Origin: Phycisphaerae bacterium
GTDB lineage: Bacteria; Planctomycetota; Phycisphaerae; Phycisphaerales; SM1A02
Direction of reading: 5' to 3'
Assembly: GCA_016873315.1 (NCBI GenBank)
Contig: VGXL01000003.1
Span: forward strand, 1 to 64,000
Length of the DNA: 64,000 bases
Shown one piece after another: positions 1-31,726 of the stretch. The notes below the pieces were generated by a model. The model was not told where the DNA came from. It saw only the letters and a program-made list of their open reading frames with translations, and ran no database searches. Positions within the stretch are counted from its first letter, which is position 1. Each line of letters opens with the position of its first letter. The position numbers were made by a program, and so were the translations under genes.

Positions 1-2
1 CG

Positions 3-113
3 GCAGTCAACCTGTGGTCACTGACTGGCACTGCGCGCCAGCTTTCCTCGCAGGCTGCGGAACTCGCTCGGCGAGGCATGCCGCGCCCCTTTTCCGCGAC
101 GGCCGCAAGCTGA
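3..113 (+). CDS. possible C-terminal end of a gene entering from the left edge
   Basis: One plus frame is open from the left edge to a TGA at 111-113 and gives 36 residues, including TARQLSSQAAEL, which looks amphipathic. No family can be named from so short a piece. The other plus frames close nearby, and the following 200 bp contain degenerate repeats rather than a clear gene. This may be only a chance open frame. Confidence 0.2.
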   Translation, partial: AVNLWSLTGTARQLSSQAAELARRGMPRPFSATAAS

Positions 114-202
114 GTCGTCGCGCGCTTCGCTCACGCTGAACTCAAGGCTGACTCGTCGCGCGGCTCTTGATCCGCGACGGCCGCAAGACCGAGTCGATCG
201 CG
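92..202. repeat. degenerate repeats in the leftmost non-coding stretch
   Basis: CCGCGACGGCCGCAAG occurs at about 94-109 and again at about 172-187, each followed by a GAGTCG-containing stretch. A third related piece, CTGACTCGTCGCGCG, lies between them. Apart from a weak 24-codon minus ORF and a possible gene end, I see no gene between 1 and 313. Confidence 0.5.
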
Positions 203-216
203 GCGCACTCCATCAT
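142..216 (-). CDS. possible 24-residue small protein
   Basis: On the minus strand an ATGATG at 216-211 opens a 24-codon frame ending in TGA. A good Shine-Dalgarno match, GAGGAG at 230-225, sits 8 nt before the ATG. It lies 97 nt downstream of the 314-664 gene in the same direction, so it could be the last member of that operon. The peptide is basic and has no recognisable motif. It overlaps the degenerate repeats, so it may be spurious; only the ribosome binding site argues for it. Confidence 0.2.
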   Translation of the reverse strand: MMECAAIDSVLRPSRIKSRATSQP

Positions 217-313
217 GCAGAAAACTCCTCGATGACATCACTCCGAAGTCACTTTCGGGGGTCAAGATTGCAGATCCCGCGACGCAATGGATCGCGCGCG
301 CGAGTGTGCGCGG

Positions 314-664
314 TCAGAAGTCGTCGCGATGGCGCCGAATGCGGAAGAGGTTGCGGCCCTCTTCAGGGTCCCACAGGCACCAGCCCATTTCGCCGACGAT
401 CCGCAGCATCACGGGCCACGAGATGGCGTCGTCGCTCACGCGAAGGACAGCGAACTCCAGAATCCCGTCGCCTTCTGGCAGGCTGATCTCGATGCCGGGG
501 CCGTACAGCGTGCAACTTCCGGGCGCATCAGGAGCGGTGTTGAGCTGCGCGAGGCCTCGCAGCACGGCAGTGCGATCGCCGATCGGGGCGCGCGGGATCT
601 CGCCATCGGGATCGAGATCCTCGACATGCTCCGGAAGGCCGTAGACGTAGTACGAGCGCGCCAC
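314..664 (-). CDS. hypothetical protein, 116 aa
   Basis: A 116-residue acidic soluble protein with a GTG start at 664. It begins with ARSYYVYGLPEHVEDLDPDG and contains a Trp/Cys-rich core (VGEMGWCLWDPEEGRNLF). There is no signal peptide or membrane segment, and I do not recognise the family. The frame follows the response-regulator gene at 677-1051 with a 12-nt gap, so the two are probably one operon. A TAGGAT box at 674-679 sits 9 nt before the GTG and could drive it separately, although it overlaps the neighbour's stop codon. Regular protein-like composition supports a real gene. Confidence 0.65.
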   Translation of the reverse strand: MARSYYVYGLPEHVEDLDPDGEIPRAPIGDRTAVLRGLAQLNTAPDAPGSCTLYGPGIEISLPEGDGILEFAVLRVSDDAISWPVMLRIVGEMGWCLWDPEEGRNLFRIRRHRDDF

Positions 665-676
665 GCGATCGTGATC

Positions 677-1051
677 CTATCGGAGCGATTCACACACCGC
701 ATCGACTAAGCGCTCGAGCGGGACGGGCTTGTTGAAGTACGCACTCGCGCCGAGCGCCGTCGCGAATTCCCGGTGTCGTCGCCCTTGATTTGCCGTGACC
801 ATCACGACGGGCGGTCGCGCCGTCGCAGCACCGAGCCGCTCAAGGATCGCCAATCCTGACAACTGCGGCAGCATCATGTCGAGCACCACCGCGTCGATCC
901 CGCCAGATTGGAGCGCGGCCCACGCCTGCGCGCCGTCGCTGGCCCGGACGACGCTGGCCGATTCGGCCTCGAGCGCCAGCACCATGCCAGCCAAGACATC
1001 CGGATCATCATCGACGGCGAGGATGGTCTTGCCTTCAAGACGCCGCTGCAT
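677..1051 (-). CDS. single-domain response regulator (CheY-like receiver)
   Basis: A 124-residue stand-alone receiver domain that would take phosphate from a sensor kinase not present in the window. All key residues are there: the acidic pocket DDD at 14-16, phospho-acceptor D58 in VVLDMMLPQLSG, switch T86 in VMVTAN, and K108 in YFNKPV. There is no output domain, so it acts by protein contact or as a phosphate shuttle. A TAGGAT box at 1058-1063 lies 6 nt upstream of the ATG with no Shine-Dalgarno, which suggests a leaderless transcript. The 314-664 protein follows 12 nt downstream. Confidence 0.93.
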   Translation of the reverse strand: MQRRLEGKTILAVDDDPDVLAGMVLALEAESASVVRASDGAQAWAALQSGGIDAVVLDMMLPQLSGLAILERLGAATARPPVVMVTANQGRRHREFATALGASAYFNKPVPLERLVDAVCESLR

Positions 1052-1080
1052 ACGGGGATCCTAGCGATCGCAGATCAACC

Positions 1081-1250
1081 CGCGCGCAGCGTTCGATGGG
1101 CGTCGGCGTCGTGCCCCTGCGCGCAGCGTTCGATGGGCGTCGGCGTCGTGCCCCCGCGCGCAGCGTTCGATGGGCGTCGGCGTCGTGCCCCCGCGCGCAG
1201 CGTTCGATCGGTGTCGGCGTCGTGCCCCTGCGCTCAGCGTTCGATGGGCG
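1081..1250. repeat. 37-bp tandem array, 4.6 copies
   Basis: The core GCAGCGTTCGATGGGCGTCG recurs with exact 37-bp spacing; a landmark A falls at 1088, 1125, 1162, 1199 and 1236. The first three units are nearly identical, the fourth has GATCGGTG instead of GATGGGCG, and the fifth is truncated at about 1250. The period is not a multiple of three, so it is not a protein repeat. The stop codon and last residues (PPIER) of the LpxL-like gene lie inside the final copy, so the array grew over the 3' end of that gene. A diverged in-frame relative occurs at 6107-6180. Confidence 0.9.
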
Positions 1251-2268
1251 GAAGGGGCAGGGCCAGTTCCGCGAGCAGGGCTTCGGTCATCCAGGGAAGC
1301 GACTGGAGCTTCGCGCGGACGCGATCGGGCAGGGGCTTGCCCTGACGCTCGTGAAGCGGTCGGCTCTTCCAACGGCGGTGCATCCAGAGGTACTGCCAAG
1401 GTGAGCGGCGGATGGCCAGTTCAATGCCGCGATTCACGCGTGCAGCGATGAGGAAAGCAGGGTCGTCGGCAGCGGCCCACTCATGCGGCTCAATCACATC
1501 GTGCACATCGAACTCGTAGTGGAAGCGGTCGCCGCTGCGGTGGGCAGCACCGACCACGATCGGGACCTCGTGCCGCATGGCCAGCAGCGGGATCGACTTG
1601 TAGGTGCTTGCGAGGCGATTGAAGAACGGGACGAACAGGCCGTCGTCACCAGCATTCTGGTCGGCGATGAACCCCACTCGTCCTCGTCGATCGAGAATGT
1701 CCTGCACGACCTCGGTCGCGCCCCACTTGGTCAGGATTCGCATGCCCCGCGCCTCGCGGACGCCGAGGATCCAGCGATTGAGCCAGGGGTTGTCCAACGG
1801 CCGCGCGAGTGCCGTCATGTCGAACCCGAGCATCGTCATGACGAACCCGAGCAGTTCCCAATTGCCGCAGTGCCCCGTGCAGAGAATCACGGGCCGTCGC
1901 TCGAGCAGCAGCCCGAGCGCCCGCTGGAGGAGCGGGTGCGACGGCGCGAACGAGACGTGGCTCGTCCAACTGGTCGGCGTGACCAGGCGCGGCGTGGCCA
2001 CGCTCTCGACCATGAAGAGCTGGAACATCGACTCCAGACTTCGGACGGCGAGGTCGTGACGCTCGCGCTCGTTCAAGTGCGGCATCGCGTGGGCGAGATT
2101 GTCCATCGCGCGTCGACGGTGACGCGCCACCATCGATGCATAGAGCCGACCAAAGCCCGCAGCTGTGCGGAGGTTATCCTCGACCCCGAACGAATGAAGC
2201 AGTCCGAAGCAGGCCCTGAGGGCCGCGTACTGGGCGAAGTGGACGGCTGGCGCGACCGTGGAGGCCAC
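1234..2268 (-). CDS. LpxL/HtrB-type lipid A acyltransferase
   Basis: A 344-residue member of the bacterial lysophospholipid/lipid A acyltransferase family, which transfers a secondary acyl chain to Kdo-lipid A at the inner membrane. The catalytic HX4E motif is H133-C-G-N-W-E138, followed by FIADQN (200-205) and a C-terminal WMHRRWK (295-301), all typical of LpxL/LpxM. The N-terminal part is hydrophobic. It follows the coiled-coil gene by 7 nt, so it is the second gene of that operon. The C-terminus ends inside the 37-bp tandem array. Which acyl chain and position it uses cannot be read from sequence. Confidence 0.92.
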   Translation of the reverse strand: MASTVAPAVHFAQYAALRACFGLLHSFGVEDNLRTAAGFGRLYASMVARHRRRAMDNLAHAMPHLNERERHDLAVRSLESMFQLFMVESVATPRLVTPTSWTSHVSFAPSHPLLQRALGLLLERRPVILCTGHCGNWELLGFVMTMLGFDMTALARPLDNPWLNRWILGVREARGMRILTKWGATEVVQDILDRRGRVGFIADQNAGDDGLFVPFFNRLASTYKSIPLLAMRHEVPIVVGAAHRSGDRFHYEFDVHDVIEPHEWAAADDPAFLIAARVNRGIELAIRRSPWQYLWMHRRWKSRPLHERQGKPLPDRVRAKLQSLPWMTEALLAELALPLPPIER

Positions 2269-2275
2269 GCGGGGC

Positions 2276-3583
2276 TCAGTGCTCCGCGTCGCCGGTCAGC
2301 GTGCGCAGGCGGTTCCAGTTGAGGAGCGGGATCCGAGCGTCGGTCGCGCGCTCAACGAGCTCGAGATAGCTCGCCCGTCGCTCGCGCGCCTGGCTCACAG
2401 CCTCGATTTCCTCGATGGATGCATCGTCGCTCAACGAGCCGCGTGGCTCGCTCGGTTCGACGCCCACGAGCACGAAGTCGACATCGCCGGGGAGTTGGTC
2501 GCCCTCAGCCACGACGCCGCCCCAATCGCGAATGCGCTGGATCACGAACGCCTTCTCTTCGGCGCTGGTGCGGCCGTCGCCGTTGGTGTCGAACTCACCG
2601 TAGAGGAAGAAGCGGTAGGTGTAGTCGGGGCTGTAGATCGCGTTGACGAGGACATCGTCCTTGACCGGCGGGCTCGCGCCGCGCTGCTGGCGGATGACGC
2701 GGGCGGTGCTGGTGGTTTCGTCGACCTTGAGCACCTCGATGCTGGCCTTGCCCGGGAGGATCGCGCCGGTGGCGGGATCGACGCCTGCTGCAACTGCATC
2801 GGCGTAGACCTCGAAGGTCATGCCAGGACGGATGCGGTGCTTGCGGCCAAGGTCGATGTACACGCGGCCTTCAGCGTTCGAGGACAGCACATGACCATCG
2901 ACGAGCGCCGCCGAATTCTTCGGCTGCACGCGGAAGCGATCCACCTGGCGTTGCAGGTCGCCGGCGCGCGAGACCAGCGAGTTCTTCTCGTCAGCGAGCG
3001 CTTCGAGTTGTCCCTGCAGTTCTTCTTCGCGGGCGCGTCCTGCACTGGCGACTTCATCACGAGCGCTGGCGAGCTGGCTCTTGAGTTGATCGAGTTCGGT
3101 CTGCGTCTTGGCGATCGCTTCCTCGCGTTGGGCGAACTCGGGCCCCTTGGCTTCGAGCGCCTCGTCGTAGGCCTGCTTTGCTTCGTCGATGCGACGGATG
3201 GCAACGGACAGGTCGGACTCGGCCTTCTTGGTCGCCTCTCGTGCTGCATCCAAGTCCTTGCGCAGCTTGGTCGCGTCGCTTCGGGCCTTGTCGAGCATGG
3301 ACTTGACGATGTCATTCTCGCCCGCGCCAAACTCCTGACGCAGTTCCTCGAGCGACGCATCGGTTCGCCCAACCATCAGCGCCACAGCTTGTCCAAGGCG
3401 CTGCGTGGCTTCGTCGGCCTTGCGGTCCGATTCCGACTGACCACCGCGGGCTGCATCGGCGACCTTGCGGGCGTCGTCGTACTTGGACCACAGGACGATG
3501 CTCGCCACCAGCAGCGCCACCGTCGCGAGAACAAAGATGACCAAGCCAATGACGGTGCCGTTGCTGCCGGAGCGCGATGCCAT
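2276..3583 (-). CDS. membrane-anchored coiled-coil protein, unknown function
   Basis: 435 residues: one transmembrane helix (about 10-31), a long charged coiled coil (about 45-220, rich in A/E/K/R/D heptads), then a C-terminal region beginning with a small beta-rich segment (VDGHVLSSNAEGRVYIDLG). A single EF-hand-like loop, DTNGDGRTSAEE, lies near residue 335, and the C-terminus ends in IPLLNWNRLRTLTG. The arrangement suggests a cytoplasmic or periplasmic stalk anchored in the inner membrane. I cannot name a family. It leads an operon with the LpxL-like gene, hinting at an envelope role. GAGG about 10 nt before the ATG is a plausible ribosome binding site. Confidence 0.82.
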   Translation of the reverse strand: MASRSGSNGTVIGLVIFVLATVALLVASIVLWSKYDDARKVADAARGGQSESDRKADEATQRLGQAVALMVGRTDASLEELRQEFGAGENDIVKSMLDKARSDATKLRKDLDAAREATKKAESDLSVAIRRIDEAKQAYDEALEAKGPEFAQREEAIAKTQTELDQLKSQLASARDEVASAGRAREEELQGQLEALADEKNSLVSRAGDLQRQVDRFRVQPKNSAALVDGHVLSSNAEGRVYIDLGRKHRIRPGMTFEVYADAVAAGVDPATGAILPGKASIEVLKVDETTSTARVIRQQRGASPPVKDDVLVNAIYSPDYTYRFFLYGEFDTNGDGRTSAEEKAFVIQRIRDWGGVVAEGDQLPGDVDFVLVGVEPSEPRGSLSDDASIEEIEAVSQARERRASYLELVERATDARIPLLNWNRLRTLTGDAEH

Positions 3584-3606
3584 AGGGAGCTACCTCGTGG
3601 GGGGCA

Positions 3607-3627
3607 GGGGTGGCGAAAGGCCACCCC
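3607..3627. other. perfect 8-bp hairpin in the leader of the coiled-coil gene
   Basis: GGGGTGGC at 3607-3614 and GCCACCCC at 3620-3627 form a perfect stem with a 5-nt loop. On the minus strand it would fall right at the 5' end of the transcript expected from the promoter at 3637-3666, about 25 nt before the start codon. It could stabilise the mRNA or hinder translation. No U tract follows, so I do not call it a terminator. Confidence 0.55.
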
Positions 3628-3636
3628 GAGACCCGG

Positions 3637-3666
3637 AGTGTCGCGCATGGAGGGGGCATGCGTCAA
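3637..3666 (-). promoter_or_regulatory. promoter for the coiled-coil/lpxL operon
   Basis: On the minus strand TTGACG (3666-3661) matches the -35 consensus at 5 of 6 bases. It is followed after 18 bp by GACACT (3642-3637), a weaker -10. Transcription would begin near 3630, giving a leader of about 47 nt. Confidence 0.45.
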
Positions 3667-3724
3667 GCGGATCGGTGGTCCGATCACCATGTGGCGGGGC
3701 GGGAGCGCCGGGTGGGCAGGTGGG

Positions 3725-3753
3725 TTGCGCCGAAGCCGCCTTGCCGCCATAAT
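3725..3753 (+). promoter_or_regulatory. rpsT promoter
   Basis: TTGCGC at 3725-3730 and CATAAT at 3748-3753 are separated by exactly 17 bp. The predicted start near 3760 gives a leader of about 30 nt containing the rpsT Shine-Dalgarno site, so this is a conventional led transcript. Confidence 0.55.
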
Positions 3754-3789
3754 GCCGGATCCCCCGCAGTCAGCAGAGGAACCACACCA

Positions 3790-4062
3790 GTGCCCAACAC
3801 CGCATCGGCCAAGAAGCGAGTTCGACAGACCGAAGAACGCAACGCCCGCAATCGCTGGCGCCGCACCCGCGTGAAGGATGCCGTCAAGGCGTTCAACACC
3901 GCCGTGCTGGCTGGTGACAGCAAGGCTGCCGCCGAGGCCTACAACCAGGTCGCGAGCCTGATGGACAAGTTCTCGCACACCCCGACCATGCACAAGAACA
4001 CGGCGGCCCGTCGCAAGAGCCGCCTTGCCAAGCGCCTGGCCGGTCTCACGGCAAAGAAGTGA
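3790..4062 (+). CDS. rpsT: 30S ribosomal protein S20
   Basis: A 90-residue basic protein that binds 16S rRNA in the small subunit. It opens PNTASAKKRVRQTEERNARN, the usual S20 N-terminus (protein beginning A/PNxxSAKKRxRQ), and ends SRLAKRLAGLTAKK. The GTG at 3790 is chosen because it begins exactly where the family begins and AGAGGA lies 9 nt upstream. A longer frame runs further upstream but has no homology. The CPBP protease gene follows 3 nt after the stop, so the two are likely co-transcribed. Confidence 0.96.
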   Translation: MPNTASAKKRVRQTEERNARNRWRRTRVKDAVKAFNTAVLAGDSKAAAEAYNQVASLMDKFSHTPTMHKNTAARRKSRLAKRLAGLTAKK

Positions 4063-4065
4063 GCC

Positions 4066-4863
4066 GTGGCGGCCCGGACGCCGCGAACACGAACCAAGAC
4101 CCGAGCGGCCCGGCCTGACGCCGGGCCGTTGTCCTATTGGGAGCGATCCAAGCGCCCATTGGACATCTTGGCACTTCTTGTTCCGCTGATCGTGCTCTAC
4201 GAGATCGGCCTGGTGCGGTGGCTCGCCACTGCGCAGGGCGTGCAAACCAACGACGCGCACCGAGCGCTGGTCCACCTGTTCGAGTCCTTCGGGATCGACC
4301 CGACGCGACTCGGACTGCCGGTGCTCAGCCTTCCTGCGGTGGCCATGTTGGTGGTGCTGCTCGTGCTGCACATGCTCTCGCGCAAGCCGTGGACGATCGA
4401 TGTGCCGACGGTCGCTGGCATGGTGGTCGAGGGCGCGCTCGCCGGACTTCCGCTCTATGTCCTGGTGCGCGCAGTCATGGGTGTGGCAACGATGGCCACC
4501 ACCGCGTCGCCGGGTGCCTGGCTTGGGGACCGCATCCTGATTTCCATCGGAGCAGGGCTTTACGAGGAATTCATTTTCCGCATGGTGGCGCTGCTGCTGT
4601 TGCACTCGATCCTGTCGGACCTCATCCGCATCAAGGAACCGTGGGCGACCTGGGTCGCGGTCGTGCTGGCTGCGTTGGCGTTCGCGGCGTACCACCCGCT
4701 GCGGGGCGCGACGGGCGCGATCGAGTGGCCGGTGTTCGCGTCGCTCTTCGTGGCCGGGCTCTATTTCGGCGGGCTGTATGTGGTGCGCGGATTCGGGATC
4801 GCGGTCGCCGCACACGCGTCGTATGACATCGTTGTGGCGGCGGTTTCGCAGCCTGTGGGATAG
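4066..4863 (+). CDS. CPBP-family intramembrane metalloprotease (CAAX/Abi)
   Basis: 265 residues with about six to seven hydrophobic segments. The three family motifs are present: E167-E168-x3-R172 (EEFIFR), H210 in FAAYHP, and H250-x3 (HASYD), which bind metal within the membrane. These proteases cleave substrates inside the bilayer; the substrate here is unknown. A GTG start at 4066 lies 3 nt after rpsT. The TAG stop is part of the TAGCAT box in front of kdsC. Confidence 0.9.
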   Translation: MAARTPRTRTKTRAARPDAGPLSYWERSKRPLDILALLVPLIVLYEIGLVRWLATAQGVQTNDAHRALVHLFESFGIDPTRLGLPVLSLPAVAMLVVLLVLHMLSRKPWTIDVPTVAGMVVEGALAGLPLYVLVRAVMGVATMATTASPGAWLGDRILISIGAGLYEEFIFRMVALLLLHSILSDLIRIKEPWATWVAVVLAALAFAAYHPLRGATGAIEWPVFASLFVAGLYFGGLYVVRGFGIAVAAHASYDIVVAAVSQPVG

Positions 4864-4866
4864 CAT
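4861..4866 (+). promoter_or_regulatory. TAGCAT -10-like box for kdsC
   Basis: The box starts with the stop codon of the CPBP gene and ends 8 nt before the kdsC ATG, where no Shine-Dalgarno is visible. It is one of the leaderless-type boxes listed in the findings. Confidence 0.4.
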
Positions 4867-4874
4867 CGGCCGCC

Positions 4875-5387
4875 ATGTCCGATGCGCGCTCCGTTCGTCT
4901 GCTCGTGCTCGATGTCGATGGCGTCCTGACCGATGCCGGCATCATCTATTCCGAGGATGGTGTGGAGCACAAGCGCTTCTGCGCGCGTGATGGAGCTGGC
5001 ATCGTTGCGTGGCGCCGTCTGGGCAATCGCGTGGCGATCTTGTCGGGGCGAACCTCGTCGACCGTCGAACGACGCGCACGCGAACTCGGTATCGAAGTTG
5101 TGGTGCAAGGATCGAAGGACAAGCTCGCTGACCTGCGCACGGTCGTCGATCGCTGCGGATGCTCGCTCGACGAAACCGCGATGATGGGCGACGACTGGCC
5201 GGACTTGCCGGCGATGATGGCGTGCCACTACCGGATCACGGTCTCCGATGCCTGCCAGGATGTTCGCAGCATCGCTGACTTTGTCGCGCGTCATCGTGGA
5301 GGACATGGTGCCGTGCGCGAGGCGATCGAACACCTGCTGCAGGAGCAGGGGCGCCTTGCGGAGGCTCAATCGTGCTTCGCGGCCTGA
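4875..5387 (+). CDS. kdsC: 3-deoxy-D-manno-octulosonate 8-phosphate phosphatase (KdsC)
   Basis: A 170-residue HAD phosphatase without a cap domain, hydrolysing Kdo-8-phosphate to Kdo for lipopolysaccharide. The nucleophile motif is D13-V-D15-G-V-L-T-D; ILSGRTSS (55-62) is motif II, K83 motif III, and MGDDWPDLPAM (104-114) motif IV. The C-terminal RGGHGAVREA tail is characteristic of KdsC. Its last 16 nt overlap the start of the LptC/OstA-like gene, recalling the kdsC-lptC-lptA order of Proteobacteria. KdsD, the step before last in the pathway, is encoded at 31727-32725. Confidence 0.92.
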   Translation: MSDARSVRLLVLDVDGVLTDAGIIYSEDGVEHKRFCARDGAGIVAWRRLGNRVAILSGRTSSTVERRARELGIEVVVQGSKDKLADLRTVVDRCGCSLDETAMMGDDWPDLPAMMACHYRITVSDACQDVRSIADFVARHRGGHGAVREAIEHLLQEQGRLAEAQSCFAA

Positions 5388-8300
5388 CGCCGTCGCGCCT
5401 GATCTTGTTGGGCTCGGCGCTCCTGATCAGCGCAGGACTCTTGGTGTTGGCGGCGGGGAGCGACCGCGGCATTCCGCGTGGCGCACCGCGCCGCATCAAG
5501 GATCCCTCGACGCTTGCTCCTCCGGCCTCGCTCGGCGACGACGAAGCATCGCGTGCCGGTTCTCCTGCCGACATGCGCGGTGGCATGCAGCTCGATGCCG
5601 GCGCGTGGGTCCAGGTCGCGGGACCAGACGGTCGGGTCAAGCAGCGCTACACGGCGGATCGCATCGATCCACGCCCGGGTCAATGGCTTGAGATGGTGCA
5701 GCCGCGTGCGGTCATGCACAGTCCGAACGGACGCATCGTTGCGCTGCGCGGCGATCGTGGGCGTGCGCATGTGCCGTCCAAGGCCCTGGAGCATGGCCAC
5801 TTCGAGGGCAATGTCGTGGTCAGCGTCTGGATGCCTGATGACGAGGGGCACAGCCGCGACATCACGACCGAGGATCCCAGCGTCGTCGTGCTCGCGCACG
5901 AGGCGACATTTGATGCGATCCGCAATCGCATCGATGCGCCTGGTGAAGTGAAGATCACGAGCGACACCCTGCAGTTCACGGGCGACACGCTCGAACTGGT
6001 GCTCTCGCCCGATGGGCGGTCGATCGAACTGCTGTCGATCCGGCGGCCGTTGTCGCCGCTGGTGATCACGCGCTTGCCTGGGAGCAAGGCCGCGTCCGCG
6101 CCTGTGCCCATCGAGCGCGGCGTGGCGCAGCCGACGACGCTCACGCCCATCGAGCGCGGCGTGGCGCATGGCGGCACGCATCTGCCCGTCGTTCATCGTT
6201 CGAGCGCTCCGCCCGAGCCTGATCGCGCCAGTCGGCCGTATCGACTGCAGCTTCGCGATGCGGTGCACATCACGCGCGAACGGGGCGGACAGGCGAGCTC
6301 GATGACCGGTGACCAATTGGTCGCGTACTTCCATCTTGAGGAAGGCCGAACGAGTGACCCGCTCGTCGATGCCTCGGGTCGCTCATCCGATTTCGATGTC
6401 GTTGCGGAGCACCTGTCGGGACGGGGGAACGCCACTCCTGTGCGCGATCACGCGGTTCCGGGATCAATCCCTGCGTTCGTCGCGTCGCAGGTGTTCGCGG
6501 CCGTGCCATCGCCATCAGGCACCATGACTGCGAACGAGGATGCTGAGCGCGTCGTCGTGCGCTTCGCCGGACCATTGGTCATGCGCCCAGCGGTTGCGGA
6601 CGAGCATCCTCCCGCTGACGATCACATGCGGATCGAACTCGACGGTCGTCCCGTCGAACTGGCCGACCTGCCGATGGCGCTCCGCGCTCCCGATGTGACC
6701 GTGGACATGGTGCGGACGACCGACGGCGACCAGCCCGAGCGAGTGCTCGCGACCGGTGGCGCACGAGCCACCGACGGCACCCGCGTGATCGAGGCGTCGA
6801 CGATGGACATCCTGCTCGATGGTCAGGCTGGCGGCAGCGAACCGCGCAGGGCCGTGCTCACCAATGGTGTGCGGCTTTCTGATCGCGAGCGGTTGGCCAG
6901 CGCGCAGTCAGCCGACATTCGATTCACGCGTGGCAGCGATGGCAAGGCGCAGCCACGGCGCGCCGAACTGCGTGGCGGCGTGACGATGATCGAAGGGACA
7001 CGGACGGTCGGCGCAGGTGAACTTGATCTGGACTTCGTCGAAGTGGATGGCGCGGCCCAACCGGTTCGGGCGCGCCTTCGCACCGAAGTCCGCATCGCCG
7101 ACGCGATGCAGGTGCTCTGGGCGAAGGAAGTCGACTGCGCGTTCGGGCCACTCGATGGTTCAACGGGCCATCAGCTCACGCAGGCCGACGCTTCATCGAC
7201 GGTGCAGCTGCAGGTCAAGGATGGTGCGCGCGTCTTTGCAGACTCGCTGCAGGCCGATCTGGTGCGGCGGCAAGCGCTGCTGCGCGGTCCCGGATTGCAG
7301 GTGGTGCGCGGCCCCGTGCGCGTGGACCAGATCTCGTCGCTTCGCGTGGATGAACGGGAGCGATCCGCGCGAGTGGACGGCCCCGGGCGAGCGCAGGGAT
7401 TTGAGCGACCGATCCTCGCCGATGCACAGGCATCGGCGAAGGCCAAGGCACCCAAGGAGCCCACGCTTCGCAAGCAATTCGAGGCCACTTGGCAAGAGCA
7501 GATGGCCTTTCAGGAGCGCGAGGCCGATGGTGCGGTCCTCGAACTGCGAGGCGCAGTCGCCATGCGCGCGGAGCCGGAACCCGGCGAGATCGATTTGCTC
7601 GATGCGCGCTCGGTGACGGTCGAGTTCCTGCCCAAGAGTGCGCCGAACGAAACTCCATCGGCGGGTGCGAAGGCTGATGCATCGACGACGGAGTCCGCAG
7701 CTGGCGGCAAGGACCTGCGCGTGAGCAAGGTCATCGCAGTCGGTGACGCGCAGGTGCAGAACCAAGTGTGGACGATGAGCAATGGTCGGCGATCCGGCGA
7801 CCCGCGACTGGTCAAGGTGCAGGGCGATCGCCTGGAGTTCGACTTGGTCCGCAGTGAGGTGTCCGCGCCCGGTGTGGGCTCGGTGCTCGTGAACAATCCC
7901 TCGGCAGCTGGCGCGCGCGCAGCGAGCTTCGTCGGACCGGGGCATGAGGGTGTCACGCGTTTCCGCTTCGCCGACGGGATGCAGATCAAGCAGCTCGGCG
8001 GCGATCTCCACCGAATGAGCATGCGCAAGTCGGTCGAGGTGGCGCATGCGGGGCCGCGCGAAGGAGACCACTTCACCTTGACCTGCGATGCGCTGGACGC
8101 GGACCTCTTCCGTCCCACGGCGGCCGAGGCCGCCAAGGATGAAGTGATCGGATTCGGCGGGGCCGCCGAGATCCGCACGCTGTTGGCGCAGGGCGCGGTC
8201 TTCGTGCGCACCTCGCAGTTCGAATGCGAGTGCGAGTCCTTCGACTACGACGCCCAGAAGCAGGTCGCCGTGATGCGGGCTGCGCCGGGGCGGCTGGTTG

Positions 8301-8410
8301 CGCTGGTGCCGACCGGGCAAGCGGCGCCCACGCGCGCTGCGTCGTTTCGCTGGGACATGGCGGCGGGCAAGTTGACGGTCGAAGGCGCGCAAGGCGGCAT
8401 GCGCCGCTAG
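5372..8410 (+). CDS. giant LptC/OstA-like lipopolysaccharide-transport protein
   Basis: A 1012-residue protein with an N-terminal membrane anchor (about 8-28). A region resembling LptC follows (about 70-230), then several OstA/LptA-like segments of short beta strands (for example ATGGARATDG and AELRGGVTMIEG). Such folds form a groove that carries LPS across the periplasm. GTG at 5372 overlaps kdsC by 16 nt, so translation is coupled. LptC is about 190 and LptA about 180 residues in E. coli, so this looks like a fused and repeated form. The stop codon overlaps the convergent ABC-exporter stop by 4 nt. Function is inferred from position and weak sequence character, not a strong motif. Confidence 0.75.
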   Translation: MLRGLTPSRLILLGSALLISAGLLVLAAGSDRGIPRGAPRRIKDPSTLAPPASLGDDEASRAGSPADMRGGMQLDAGAWVQVAGPDGRVKQRYTADRIDPRPGQWLEMVQPRAVMHSPNGRIVALRGDRGRAHVPSKALEHGHFEGNVVVSVWMPDDEGHSRDITTEDPSVVVLAHEATFDAIRNRIDAPGEVKITSDTLQFTGDTLELVLSPDGRSIELLSIRRPLSPLVITRLPGSKAASAPVPIERGVAQPTTLTPIERGVAHGGTHLPVVHRSSAPPEPDRASRPYRLQLRDAVHITRERGGQASSMTGDQLVAYFHLEEGRTSDPLVDASGRSSDFDVVAEHLSGRGNATPVRDHAVPGSIPAFVASQVFAAVPSPSGTMTANEDAERVVVRFAGPLVMRPAVADEHPPADDHMRIELDGRPVELADLPMALRAPDVTVDMVRTTDGDQPERVLATGGARATDGTRVIEASTMDILLDGQAGGSEPRRAVLTNGVRLSDRERLASAQSADIRFTRGSDGKAQPRRAELRGGVTMIEGTRTVGAGELDLDFVEVDGAAQPVRARLRTEVRIADAMQVLWAKEVDCAFGPLDGSTGHQLTQADASSTVQLQVKDGARVFADSLQADLVRRQALLRGPGLQVVRGPVRVDQISSLRVDERERSARVDGPGRAQGFERPILADAQASAKAKAPKEPTLRKQFEATWQEQMAFQEREADGAVLELRGAVAMRAEPEPGEIDLLDARSVTVEFLPKSAPNETPSAGAKADASTTESAAGGKDLRVSKVIAVGDAQVQNQVWTMSNGRRSGDPRLVKVQGDRLEFDLVRSEVSAPGVGSVLVNNPSAAGARAASFVGPGHEGVTRFRFADGMQIKQLGGDLHRMSMRKSVEVAHAGPREGDHFTLTCDALDADLFRPTAAEAAKDEVIGFGGAAEIRTLLAQGAVFVRTSQFECECESFDYDAQKQVAVMRAAPGRLVALVPTGQAAPTRAASFRWDMAAGKLTVEGAQGGMRR
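6107..6180 (+). repeat. 39-bp in-frame duplication related to the 1081-1250 array
   Basis: CCCATCGAGCGCGGCGTGGC begins at 6107 and again at 6146, a 39-bp (13-codon) period that duplicates the peptide PIERGVA inside the LptC/OstA-like protein. The reverse complement of the 37-bp unit at 1081-1250 carries the same core, GCCCATCGAACGC plus ACGACGCCGAC. The two loci therefore share a repeat family; in the coding copy the period is a multiple of three. Confidence 0.7.
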
Positions 8411-10338
8411 GCCGGCGCGATGGCCGGCGCCGTCTGCAGCGTCACCATTCGCCTGTAGTGCTCGCTGCGATCCATGAGTTCCGCGTGGGTGCCCTGATCG
8501 TCGATGCGGCCGTCGCGGATCACGATGATGCGATCGGCGTGCTGGATCGTGCTGAGTCGGTGGGCAATCACGAAACTCGTGCGCGATCGCATGAGCGTGG
8601 CGAGCGCGACTTGGATGAAGCGTTCGCTCTCGCTGTCGAGGTTGCTCGTCGCTTCGTCGAGAATGAGGATGCGCGGATCCGCGAGCACCGCGCGCGCGAT
8701 CGCGATGCGCTGGCGCTGGCCTCCGGAGAGCCGCACGCCGCGCTCACCGATGATGGTGGCGTAGCGGTCTGGCATCTCCTCGATGAAACGGTCGGCGAAG
8801 GCGATCCGTGCGGCCTCGCGGATCGCTTCGTCCGAGGCATCTCGCCGCGCATAGGCGATGTTCTGGGCGACGGTGCCGTCGAAGAGAAAGACATCCTGCT
8901 CGACGATTCCCAGCAACTGGCGGTAGCCAGACAACTTCAGGTCGCGCAGGTCGGTGCCATCGAGCAGAATCGCACCATCGGTGGGGTCGCTGAAGCGGGC
9001 GATGAGGTTGCAGAGCGTGGTCTTGCCGCTGCCGCTTGCACCGACCAAGGCCACCACCTGACCCGGCTCGGCGACCAGACTCACGCCGCGCAACACCTCG
9101 CGCTCGGCGCCGGGGTAGCGGAAGCGAACATCGCGGATCTCCACCCGGCCGCGAACCAGACTGCGCTCGGGAGCAACGGCTCCAGCCCGATCGGGCAATT
9201 CCGACGGTTCTGCGACCAAGTCGAGCACGCGATCGAGCCCAGCGAGGCTGGCCTGGAAGTTGGTGGCACTCGTAGCAAGGGCCTCGAGGGGTCCAAGGAG
9301 CATCACGAGGTAGGTGAGGAACAGGATGAGGTCGCCGGTCGTGAGCACGCCCTGGAGCACCTGCGTGCCGCCGTACCACAGCAACAGCGCGCTGGCCACC
9401 GGGATCATGATTTCCCATGCGGCCTCGATCCCGCGCGACCACCACCAGACATGGATCTCCTGCCGCGCCATGAGATGCGATCCTTCCGCGTAGCGGCCAC
9501 GCTCGGCCGTGGTGCGTGCGAACCCACGCACGACGCGGATCCCGCTGAAGGTCTCGGTGGCATGTCCATCGATCCCGTCCCGCGTGACCTTGATGTCGCG
9601 GTGCAGTGGCCGGATCCTGGCGATCCAGGTCCGGTGCGTGAACCAAACCATCGGCAGGAGCAGCAGGCTTCCCAGGAGCAAGCGCCAGTCGGTCCACGCC
9701 AGCACCGCCAAGCTGCCCACCACTTGGATGATCGCGCGCCACGGGTTGTAGACCATTGAAAAGACAAGATCGCCCACACCGCCAGCGTCCTCGCGCAGCA
9801 TGCTGACCAGACCACCGGACTTCAGCGAGTGCAATCGGTGCAGCGGCAGGTCTGCTGCGTGTGCGAAGGCCAAGCGTCGCACGGCGTTCTGCACGCGCTT
9901 GACCGTTCGCGTGGCCATCCATCGACCCCAAAGGCCGACCACCAGGCGAAGCACGGTGAGCGCCACCATGCCGATGGCCAGGGCCACCAGCAACCCGCGC
10001 GGCGTGTCGAGCGTGGACCATGACTCTGGAAAGAGCCTGCGAAGCGAAGGATTCAGGGGCGCACCGCCGAAGACATTGTCGATGGCGAACTTCGTTGCTG
10101 CGGGCGGGACCAGGCCAAGCAGCGTGCTCACGGTCAGCGTGCCCAAGGCGAGCGCGAGCGCGCGGCGATTGGGCCCGAGCAAGCGAAGGAACTCCCACAG
10201 CAACGCACCGAAGCCACGGGATCGATGAAGGCTGCGCTCCGTGCCGTGCTTGGACACCACTGAGCCGTCGCGGCGCAGACGCGCGAAGCGCTCGCGCAAC
10301 GCGGCGCGGTAGTCCTGGTAGCGGCGGCGGCTGCTCAT
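8407..10338 (-). CDS. MsbA-like ABC exporter (fused permease and ATPase)
   Basis: A 643-residue half-transporter: a cytoplasmic N-terminus, six predicted membrane helices (about 58-345), then an ATPase domain. Walker A is GASGSGKT (433-440), Q-loop Q481, signature LSGGQ (537-541), Walker B ILILDE (557-562) and H-loop H593. Homodimers of this type flip lipids or drugs outward. The neighbouring kdsC, LptC/OstA-like and lpxL-like genes make lipid A/LPS the favoured substrate, but this is inference. A TAGCAT box lies 15 nt upstream of the ATG. The 3' end overlaps the opposing gene by 4 nt. Confidence 0.88.
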   Translation of the reverse strand: MSSRRRYQDYRAALRERFARLRRDGSVVSKHGTERSLHRSRGFGALLWEFLRLLGPNRRALALALGTLTVSTLLGLVPPAATKFAIDNVFGGAPLNPSLRRLFPESWSTLDTPRGLLVALAIGMVALTVLRLVVGLWGRWMATRTVKRVQNAVRRLAFAHAADLPLHRLHSLKSGGLVSMLREDAGGVGDLVFSMVYNPWRAIIQVVGSLAVLAWTDWRLLLGSLLLLPMVWFTHRTWIARIRPLHRDIKVTRDGIDGHATETFSGIRVVRGFARTTAERGRYAEGSHLMARQEIHVWWWSRGIEAAWEIMIPVASALLLWYGGTQVLQGVLTTGDLILFLTYLVMLLGPLEALATSATNFQASLAGLDRVLDLVAEPSELPDRAGAVAPERSLVRGRVEIRDVRFRYPGAEREVLRGVSLVAEPGQVVALVGASGSGKTTLCNLIARFSDPTDGAILLDGTDLRDLKLSGYRQLLGIVEQDVFLFDGTVAQNIAYARRDASDEAIREAARIAFADRFIEEMPDRYATIIGERGVRLSGGQRQRIAIARAVLADPRILILDEATSNLDSESERFIQVALATLMRSRTSFVIAHRLSTIQHADRIIVIRDGRIDDQGTHAELMDRSEHYRRMVTLQTAPAIAPA

Positions 10339-10381
10339 GTGCGGTACCGGGCCATGCTAGGGGGGCAGTACAGTGCTCCTC

Positions 10382-11632
10382 ATGAGCCATCCACTGGTCT
10401 TCGTACTTTCGGGTTGCATGCTCGCCGCGTCGTTCCTTGGCTTTGCGCAATCCGCCACCGGCACGGATCGCAGCTCGAAGTCATCCTCGATGACGCAGCA
10501 GGGATCGGACGGACCTCGTCGCGACACCGATGCGAAGCAGGGCGCGGAGCAGCAGCCCAAGGCCAAGCGTCCACCCGGCGTCTACTACGGCTTCAAGCAA
10601 GCGCCGGCCAAGAAGAAGGGCGCCGTTCGTCTGGCGGCCTACAACGTCGAGAACCTCTTCGACGGCGAGGATGATCCGAAACTCAGCGGCGACGTCGATG
10701 ACCTGCAGGAACGCACGAGCGAGGATCGGCTGCAGGCGCTCGCGAAGGCGATCAAGGAGCTCGATGCAGACATCTTGGCACTTGAAGAGGTCGAGAGCGA
10801 AGAGTGCCTGCGTTGGTTCCGTGACACCTACCTCAAGGACATGGGCTACGAGCATCTGGCGAGCAAGGATGTGGGCTATGCACGCGGCGTCGAGCAGTCG
10901 ATTCTGAGCCGCTTCCCCATCGAGTCGGTCGAGGTGCGGCCGGACGAGGATCTGTCGGATGTGAAGCGCGATGGCAAGGGCTTTGCTGAGAAGCCGACCA
11001 AGCCCGGCGCCGAACAGGGGCAGCGATTCCAACGGAGTCCGTTGATCGCGGATGTGCGCGTCGCGCCCGACTACTCGCTCCGCGTGATTGTGGTGCACCA
11101 CAAGGCGGGTGGACTGGACTTCGCTTACCAGCGCGAGGCCGAGGCGCTTCAGGTCATGGAGTGGGTCAAGGAAGCACAGGCCAAGGACGAGCACATCAAT
11201 CTGGTCGTGTTGGGCGACTTCAACGCGCAGCCGAGCCACAAGACGGCCAAGGTCTATACCGAAGGCGGACTCGTCGGTGCGTATGACTTCCGCGACCGTT
11301 CGCGCAAGGACATGAAGGACGCGTACACCACGCACGCTTCGGGCCGCCCGATCGACTACATCATGGCGTCACCTGGCCTGAGCGAGGACTTCGTCAACAG
11401 TTCGTTCTTTGTGCTCGGCACGATGCATGCCGGCGATGACTACGACTGGCGCAAGGGCGAAGAGCCCCCCAAGGGCTACGCCAGCGACCACTATCCGATT
11501 GCGATCGATTTCACGCCTGATGATGCGGAACTTGCCGAGGGCGGCAAGGGAAAGCCCGCGTCGAAGGGTTCGTCGAAGTCGTCATCCAAGTCGTCCAAGT
11601 CGTCCAAGCCCAACGCTGACGACGACGACTGA
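10382..11632 (+). CDS. secreted endonuclease/exonuclease/phosphatase-family protein
   Basis: About 416 residues. A signal peptide (1-23) is followed by a linker and an EEP domain. The motifs are YNVENLF (N88), LALEEVES (metal-binding Glu near 135-136), VVHHKAGG, LGDFNAQP and SDHYPI, the metal and catalytic set of the DNase I-like fold. The substrate could be nucleic acid or a phosphoester. The C-terminus is a 35-residue Ser/Lys tail (repeats of SSK) ending in four Asp, perhaps a surface- or DNA-binding extension. ATG at 10382 is preferred over GTG 9 nt upstream. TACAGT at 10369-10374 lies 7 nt before it. trpB converges on it. Confidence 0.85.
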   Translation: MSHPLVFVLSGCMLAASFLGFAQSATGTDRSSKSSSMTQQGSDGPRRDTDAKQGAEQQPKAKRPPGVYYGFKQAPAKKKGAVRLAAYNVENLFDGEDDPKLSGDVDDLQERTSEDRLQALAKAIKELDADILALEEVESEECLRWFRDTYLKDMGYEHLASKDVGYARGVEQSILSRFPIESVEVRPDEDLSDVKRDGKGFAEKPTKPGAEQGQRFQRSPLIADVRVAPDYSLRVIVVHHKAGGLDFAYQREAEALQVMEWVKEAQAKDEHINLVVLGDFNAQPSHKTAKVYTEGGLVGAYDFRDRSRKDMKDAYTTHASGRPIDYIMASPGLSEDFVNSSFFVLGTMHAGDDYDWRKGEEPPKGYASDHYPIAIDFTPDDAELAEGGKGKPASKGSSKSSSKSSKSSKPNADDDD

Positions 11633-31600: not shown

Positions 31601-31642
31601 AATTCTGGAAACTTTCCGCCCAATTCTGGAAACTTTCCGCCC
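31601..31642. repeat. 21-bp direct repeat, two copies plus a partial third
   Basis: AATTCTGGAAACTTTCCGCC followed by C occurs at 31601-31621 and 31622-31642, then AATCTG begins a third. Each unit contains the near-palindrome GGAAACTTTCC. It lies just upstream of the PEP-CTERM promoter and could be a pair of regulator binding sites. Confidence 0.9.
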
Positions 31643-31726
31643 AATCTGAAGAGCTGACAGATTTCGCTTCCAGTCCAAACAAGGCGCGTTTTTGGGCCGA
31701 ATTGGCGCCTTGGCCCCGCGAAACCG

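Follow-up and report, generated by a model that had tools for sequence, protein, structure and literature searches.

The DNA analyzed here is a stretch of 64,000 nucleotides (the window) from Phycisphaerae bacterium (GTDB lineage Bacteria; Planctomycetota; Phycisphaerae; Phycisphaerales; SM1A02), corresponding to positions 1–64,000 of the forward strand of contig VGXL01000003.1 in assembly GCA_016873315.1. The G+C content of the window is 66%, and the genome to which it belongs is a fragmented MAG of 2,422,312 bases in 170 contigs. This uncultured group apparently lives in freshwater, as judged by the titles of the congener records. Near the start of the contig, a tandem array lies between two genes that are both encoded on the minus strand:

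677–1051, minus strand: gene for a single-domain response regulator, 3' of lpxL (Pfam Response_reg, E 4.3e-24)
1054–1065, minus strand: conserved block GCTAGGATCCCC just 5' of the response regulator start and outside the array, recognized by congener comparison
1079–1250, minus strand: 37-bp tandem array of 4.6 copies (TRF score 309), with units read on the gene strand
1234–1236, minus strand: TGA stop codon of the lpxL-like gene, within the array (from the sequence)
1234–2268, minus strand: lpxL-like gene for a lipid A acyltransferase of 344 aa (Pfam Lip_A_acyltrans, E 7.7e-35)

The array (period 37, 94% matches) has the top score of the 52 TRF rows for the window. It takes in the final 17 bases of the lpxL-like gene, stop codon included, and extends 155 bases into the spacer between the two genes, in agreement with the initial annotation, which had described a 37-bp array running over the end of this gene. 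A 21-base core of the unit, allowing up to three mismatches, was found at five places in the window, all within the array, compared to a mean of 0.01 in shuffled sequence. The statement that the units contain the stop codon of the gene proved true for one of the five copies: the gene-proximal copy carries the lpxL-like end and its TGA, whereas the other four have TGC at that place. Relative to the commonest unit, single bases differ at five places, of which three are in the first copy and one each in the second and fourth.

Bacterial minisatellites, or VNTR loci, consist of imperfect units of tens of bases arranged head to tail. The array is of this kind, as its units are head to tail, its period of 37 lies within the range of 10–100 bp and its 4.6 copies are above the minimum of two. 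It resembles minisatellites also in being imperfect and private to a lineage, and in having a partial last copy, but differs from them in that its unit is anchored on the stop codon of a gene. The species is represented here by one genome.

The distribution of the array was determined by comparison with related genomes. A search of 41 genomes for the lpxL-like gene gave a match in 39; 30 loci were returned, 28 of which, including that of the window, cover the site 3' of the stop codon. The comparison within the genus comprises five of the eight congeners because G003 and G006 have no LpxL match and the G005 locus ends early. The array is absent from the site in all five of these congeners and in all 27 covered relatives overall, although the response-regulator motif is present in 23 of these; one relative has a 3-bp repeat about 200 nt beyond the equivalent site. 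The spacer between the two genes is 182 nt long in our genome and 38, 38, 38, 107, and 108 nt long in the five congeners. Subtraction of four units of 37 bp leaves 34 nt, which is close to the 38 nt of three congeners. The absence from relatives and the length of the collapsed spacer together point to a private tandem expansion, which most likely arose on this lineage. It did not alter the LpxL-like protein: the C-terminus, PLPPIER, shows no lengthening relative to the congeners (PLPPITR in the nearest), and the gene-proximal copy retains the original end and stop.

Based on these data, we consider it very likely that the array is an ordinary lineage-private minisatellite at a gene end, and that a repeat in the lptC-like gene about 5 kb away, described below, is independent of it. 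A segment comprising the last lpxL-like codons, the stop codon and the start of the spacer would have been duplicated in tandem, by slippage or template switching. The array would then have grown to about 4.6 copies, probably over more than one round because four of the five single-base differences are in the two gene-side copies. Such a minisatellite would be tolerated because a duplication that crosses the stop codon leaves the protein unchanged. The visible outcome would be a lengthened spacer (182 nt vs. 38 nt in three congeners) with the conserved block near the response-regulator start intact. The array most likely is neutral, or close to it, and its copy number probably differs between strains. 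Counting against this explanation is the fact that about 15 nt of the 37-bp unit are absent from the collapsed spacer. Private arrays of this type could serve as strain markers in an uncultured group.

We also considered whether the array has a function, either as a series of repeated binding sites or as a copy-number dial for the downstream response-regulator gene, a possibility that we regard as very doubtful. The array is directly upstream of the second gene of a pair seen in 24 of the 28 loci, our own included, as judged by a response-regulator motif no more than 400 nt from the stop of the lpxL-like gene. It also adjoins the promoter-like conserved block, whose motif GCTA[GC][GC]ATCCC is present in our genome and in all five covered congeners; TAGGAT at 1058–1063 may be read as resembling a -10 box, although the promoter scan gave no site there. 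A further parallel is provided by the mycobacterial 77-bp MIRU-type repeats, which lie between senX3 and regX3 and vary in number between two vaccine strains (PMC9392950); the array likewise places its tandem copies in the gap ahead of a response-regulator gene. Nevertheless, a function is difficult to reconcile with the absence of the array from all 27 covered relatives, including the 23 with the response-regulator motif. In addition, the neighboring protein has only a receiver domain by Pfam, with no DNA-binding domain found, and units of 37 bp, or about 3.5 helical turns, would not be on the same face of the helix. Neither a fold signal beyond composition (z 0.32 on both strands) nor a predicted terminator or sigma-70 promoter site was found at the array, and there was no match to Rfam families in positions 1–10400 of the window. 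Structured RNA, a terminator array and a sigma-70 promoter were rejected as identities of the array on these grounds.

The initial annotation had also connected the array to a second locus, which it described as an in-frame, inverted relative near 6107 with a 39-bp period. The features at that locus are:

5372–8410, plus strand: lptC-like gene (a weak assignment), 1012 aa (TIGR04409 LptC, E 0.0062, 16.1 bits vs. a cut-off of 38)
6106–6129, plus strand: first copy of a 24-nt exact direct repeat, encoding PIERGVA
6145–6168, plus strand: second copy, 39 nt on and in frame, also encoding PIERGVA

The lptC-like protein has no Pfam match. The peptide PIERGVA is indeed encoded twice, but the locus holds only two 24-nt repeats, and TRF does not report the pair at 6106–6168 even at a score of 30. 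In the congener alignment the repeat is situated in a linker that is variable in both length and sequence, and PIERGVA is absent from all seven congeners that cover the linker. G001 has, about 100 residues beyond the PIERGVA point, a run of HAG repeats in another variable stretch.

The array and the lptC-like repeat match at 79% over 56 bp (44.6 bits), in inverse orientation. A single 37-bp unit used to search the window scored at most 36 beyond the array. Of 200 sequences obtained by dinucleotide shuffling of the window, three gave 36 or higher (mean 27.7); in real DNA the top score was 33, in 240 kb of our genome as well as in 239 kb from the loci of relatives. A two-unit query scored 44, vs. 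a shuffle maximum of 36 and values of 33 and 36 in real DNA, although, with tandem repeats on both sides, the match enters this score twice.

Copies of the array were also sought elsewhere, as the initial annotation had proposed along with mobility features. In the array's own genome, matches at E ≤ 0.001 were limited to the array itself and the lptC-like place, among the 40 of 46 candidates that were scored. The 21-base core with up to three mismatches has two extra single places in the genome, in C61 (two mismatches) and C33 (three), both inside long reading frames. The exact 22-base core was absent from a collection of 84,980 species and the exact 18-base core from viral contigs, two sets from which our genome and those very near to it are possibly excluded, and no array-like DNA was found in phages or plasmids. 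Of 61 genomes searched with the array at E ≤ 0.01, 21 including our own gave matches; those in the other 20 were short or weak, the best being 43.7 bits among the at most 13 first-look candidates scored per genome, a level that we have taken as chance for such GC-rich DNA.

With no dispersed copies found in these searches and no inverted repeats in positions 1000–1320, an interspersed or mobile element, such as a MITE, was rejected. The array is like REP, REPIN and MITE sequences in being short, GC-rich and mostly extragenic, but differs from them by the lack of inverted repeats and of further copies. MIRUs are one interspersed family present at many loci. The array is unlike them in its unit length and in that no further dispersed copy was found; the array, one weak match at E ≤ 0.001 and two single core-like places do not make up a MIRU-like interspersed unit.

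The two loci could still derive from one source, if a short sequence had been carried over 5 kb through ectopic template switching, at the CCCATCGA microhomology that they share, and then been tandemly amplified at each locus. We regard this as unlikely. Consistent with a shared source are the extent of the match, the fact that, apart from the array, the genome matches at E ≤ 0.001 nowhere but at the lptC-like repeat (40 of 46 candidates), the single-unit score of 36, when shuffles average 27.7 and 479 kb of real DNA gives no more than 33, and the fact that the match spans a junction between units, which is found nowhere but within the array. Against it, three of 200 window shuffles reach the single-unit score and the best match in the 60 other genomes (at most 13 candidates each) has almost the same score, 43.7 vs. 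44.6 bits. The periods are unlike (37 vs. 39), and while the copies within each locus are nearly identical, the loci differ from each other by about one fifth. The match is thus uncommon but within reach of chance, and the linker repeat is absent from the seven congeners; we regard the similarity as suggestive, a common origin as unproven, and the proposal that a single element underlies both loci as unsupported. The lptC-like repeat most likely arose independently, by a separate in-frame duplication in a tolerant linker.

The location of both repeats in genes for LPS biogenesis is also readily explained. The lpxL-like, kdsC-like, msbA-like, and weakly lptC-like genes are all within 10 kb, and because LPS genes cluster in this way two repeats can easily land in them. 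An explanation based on the repeats is not needed for the LPS link, which the initial annotation had noted may be chance. A tempting but weak story of one element linking two LPS genes gives way to what is most likely an ordinary local expansion.

Since the genome is a MAG, the array could be an artefact of assembly, which we judge to be highly improbable. The array is 1.1 kb from a contig end, and exact tandem duplications do occur in this MAG. An example is a 50-bp tandem duplication with 100% matches at L131 11785–11884, where the reading frame diverges from that of all eight congeners, at residue 250–251 of 268; the congener open frames are 368–441 aa vs. 343. This duplication is either a fresh mutation or an assembly error, and some duplications in the MAG may be assembly errors. 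Another 50-bp tandem duplication, in-gene and with 98% matches, was seen at L124 18325–18424. Arrays scoring at least 80 are also 2.5 times denser in our genome than in the samples of three congeners (40 in 704 kb vs. 23 in 1,000 kb; one-sided P 0.0003). However, the copies of the lpxL-end array are imperfect, with five single-base differences, which is unlike a simple k-mer duplication. Because of this imperfection we regard the array as real and its copy number as uncertain, and the latter may have been misassembled.

A census of tandem arrays was conducted in 704 kb sampled from our genome, using TRF score thresholds of 50, 80, and 100. Genes in the sampled DNA were predicted with a simple codon-usage script, whose stops are more dependable than its starts. 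At a score of at least 50 there were 97 arrays, of which 58 were inside predicted genes, 21 were intergenic, 14 spanned a stop and four spanned a start. Random placement, a model that was run for our genome and for G004 and that ignores selection against coding arrays, gives expectations of 5.9 intergenic, 5.6 stop-spanning, and 5.9 start-spanning arrays, and 14 stops were reached by none of 500 random sets. The intergenic arrays also exceed their expectation (21 vs. 5.9) under this same null. The stop-spanning excess becomes borderline as the threshold rises, with eight of 40 arrays at a score of 80 (4.0 expected, P 0.04) and seven of 32 at a score of 100 (3.6 expected, P 0.058). The congener G004 has no such excess (two of 30 vs. 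1.5 expected, P 0.45). Comparing our genome with the three congeners, there are eight vs. four stop-spanning arrays at a score of 80 (P 0.07) and 14 vs. five at a score of 50 (P 0.004).

The eight stop-spanning arrays scoring at least 80 overlap the gene end by 2–26 bases, counted to the last base of the stop codon, and extend 46–155 bases past it. Those outside the window, each at the stop of a predicted gene, and a similar array in a congener are located as follows:

L071 8082–8178: stop-spanning array, own genome
L134 16805–16943: stop-spanning array, own genome
L122 12481–12542: stop-spanning array, own genome
L123 11698–11782: stop-spanning array, own genome
L128 16396–16477 and 16580–16665: two stop-spanning arrays, own genome
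L139 9090–9147: stop-spanning array, own genome
L259 9238–9387 (congener G001): 28-bp array of 5.4 copies across the stop of the lptC-like gene

All four stop-spanning arrays that were compared with congeners, out of the eight, are private. The second 37-bp array is absent from five of five covered congener loci, a 26-bp array from nine of nine and a 42-bp array from three of three (two further loci had no coverage). The two 37-bp arrays, in the window and at L071 8082–8178, appear unrelated by eye, and their shared period was taken as coincidence. In the G001 array the early copies have TAG and the late ones CAG; the stop has been lost in the later copies, as in the lpxL-end array.

Array periods inside genes (score at least 50) are mostly multiples of three, in 51 of 58 arrays in our genome, 15 of 22 in G004, 17 of 19 in G001, and 31 of 34 in G007, because an in-gene duplication must keep the frame. 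Gene ends, in contrast, can collect repeats of any length because a duplication crossing the stop keeps the protein intact. This supports one part of the view that the change from 37 to 39 bp reflects selection for reading frame, in that coding repeats generally keep frame; the other part, that one element was adapted from 37 to 39 bp, is unsupported. Selection of this type is the plain reason for stop-spanning arrays.

It is conceivable, though we think it very unlikely, that gene 3' ends in this lineage are favored for tandem duplication beyond the effect of selection, with a process at transcription ends driving stop-anchored duplications and the spacers then becoming fast-changing regulators of the next gene. 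Candidate drivers would be terminating polymerase, R-loops, and replication collisions. If this were true, the lpxL-end array and the G001 array at the end of the lptC-like gene would have arisen from it independently, within one LPS gene cluster. Titles and abstract openings on stop codons and minisatellites contained nothing specific, and searches on Planctomycetes intergenic repeats and on MIRU termination codons returned no papers.

Two other repeats were noted in the window. Positions 1–107, at the contig start, correspond to the right-hand portion of an interspersed element, a hairpin of about 180 bp, a full copy of which is at L162 1390–1568. One copy of this element folds far better than its shuffles (z -5.82), and among 21 distinct full copies the arms are nearly invariant and the tip variable. 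Matches were found in all nine genomes of the genus (short and weak in G001 and G005) and in none of 92 others searched, and at least 11 of them touch a contig end. Several copies, inspected by eye, come after stop codons or tRNA genes. There was no Rfam match over the element in four loci. The element has the look of a REP, REPIN or MITE sequence and is possibly MITE- or REPIN-like, but its sequence differs from that of the array; a relationship between the two was rejected as, in 115 kb of overlapping loci around the element, the array unit had a good match only in the array itself, and the next score was 35 and lay outside the element. A 44-bp array of 2.6 copies at L073 14944–15058 looks, by eye, like an expanded end repeat of the hairpin element. 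The other repeat, at 31601–31645 of the window, is an exact 21-bp tandem duplication that lies between genes, 82 nt beyond the end of a predicted one, and has a unit with 10 G+C in 21 bases vs. 66% for the window.
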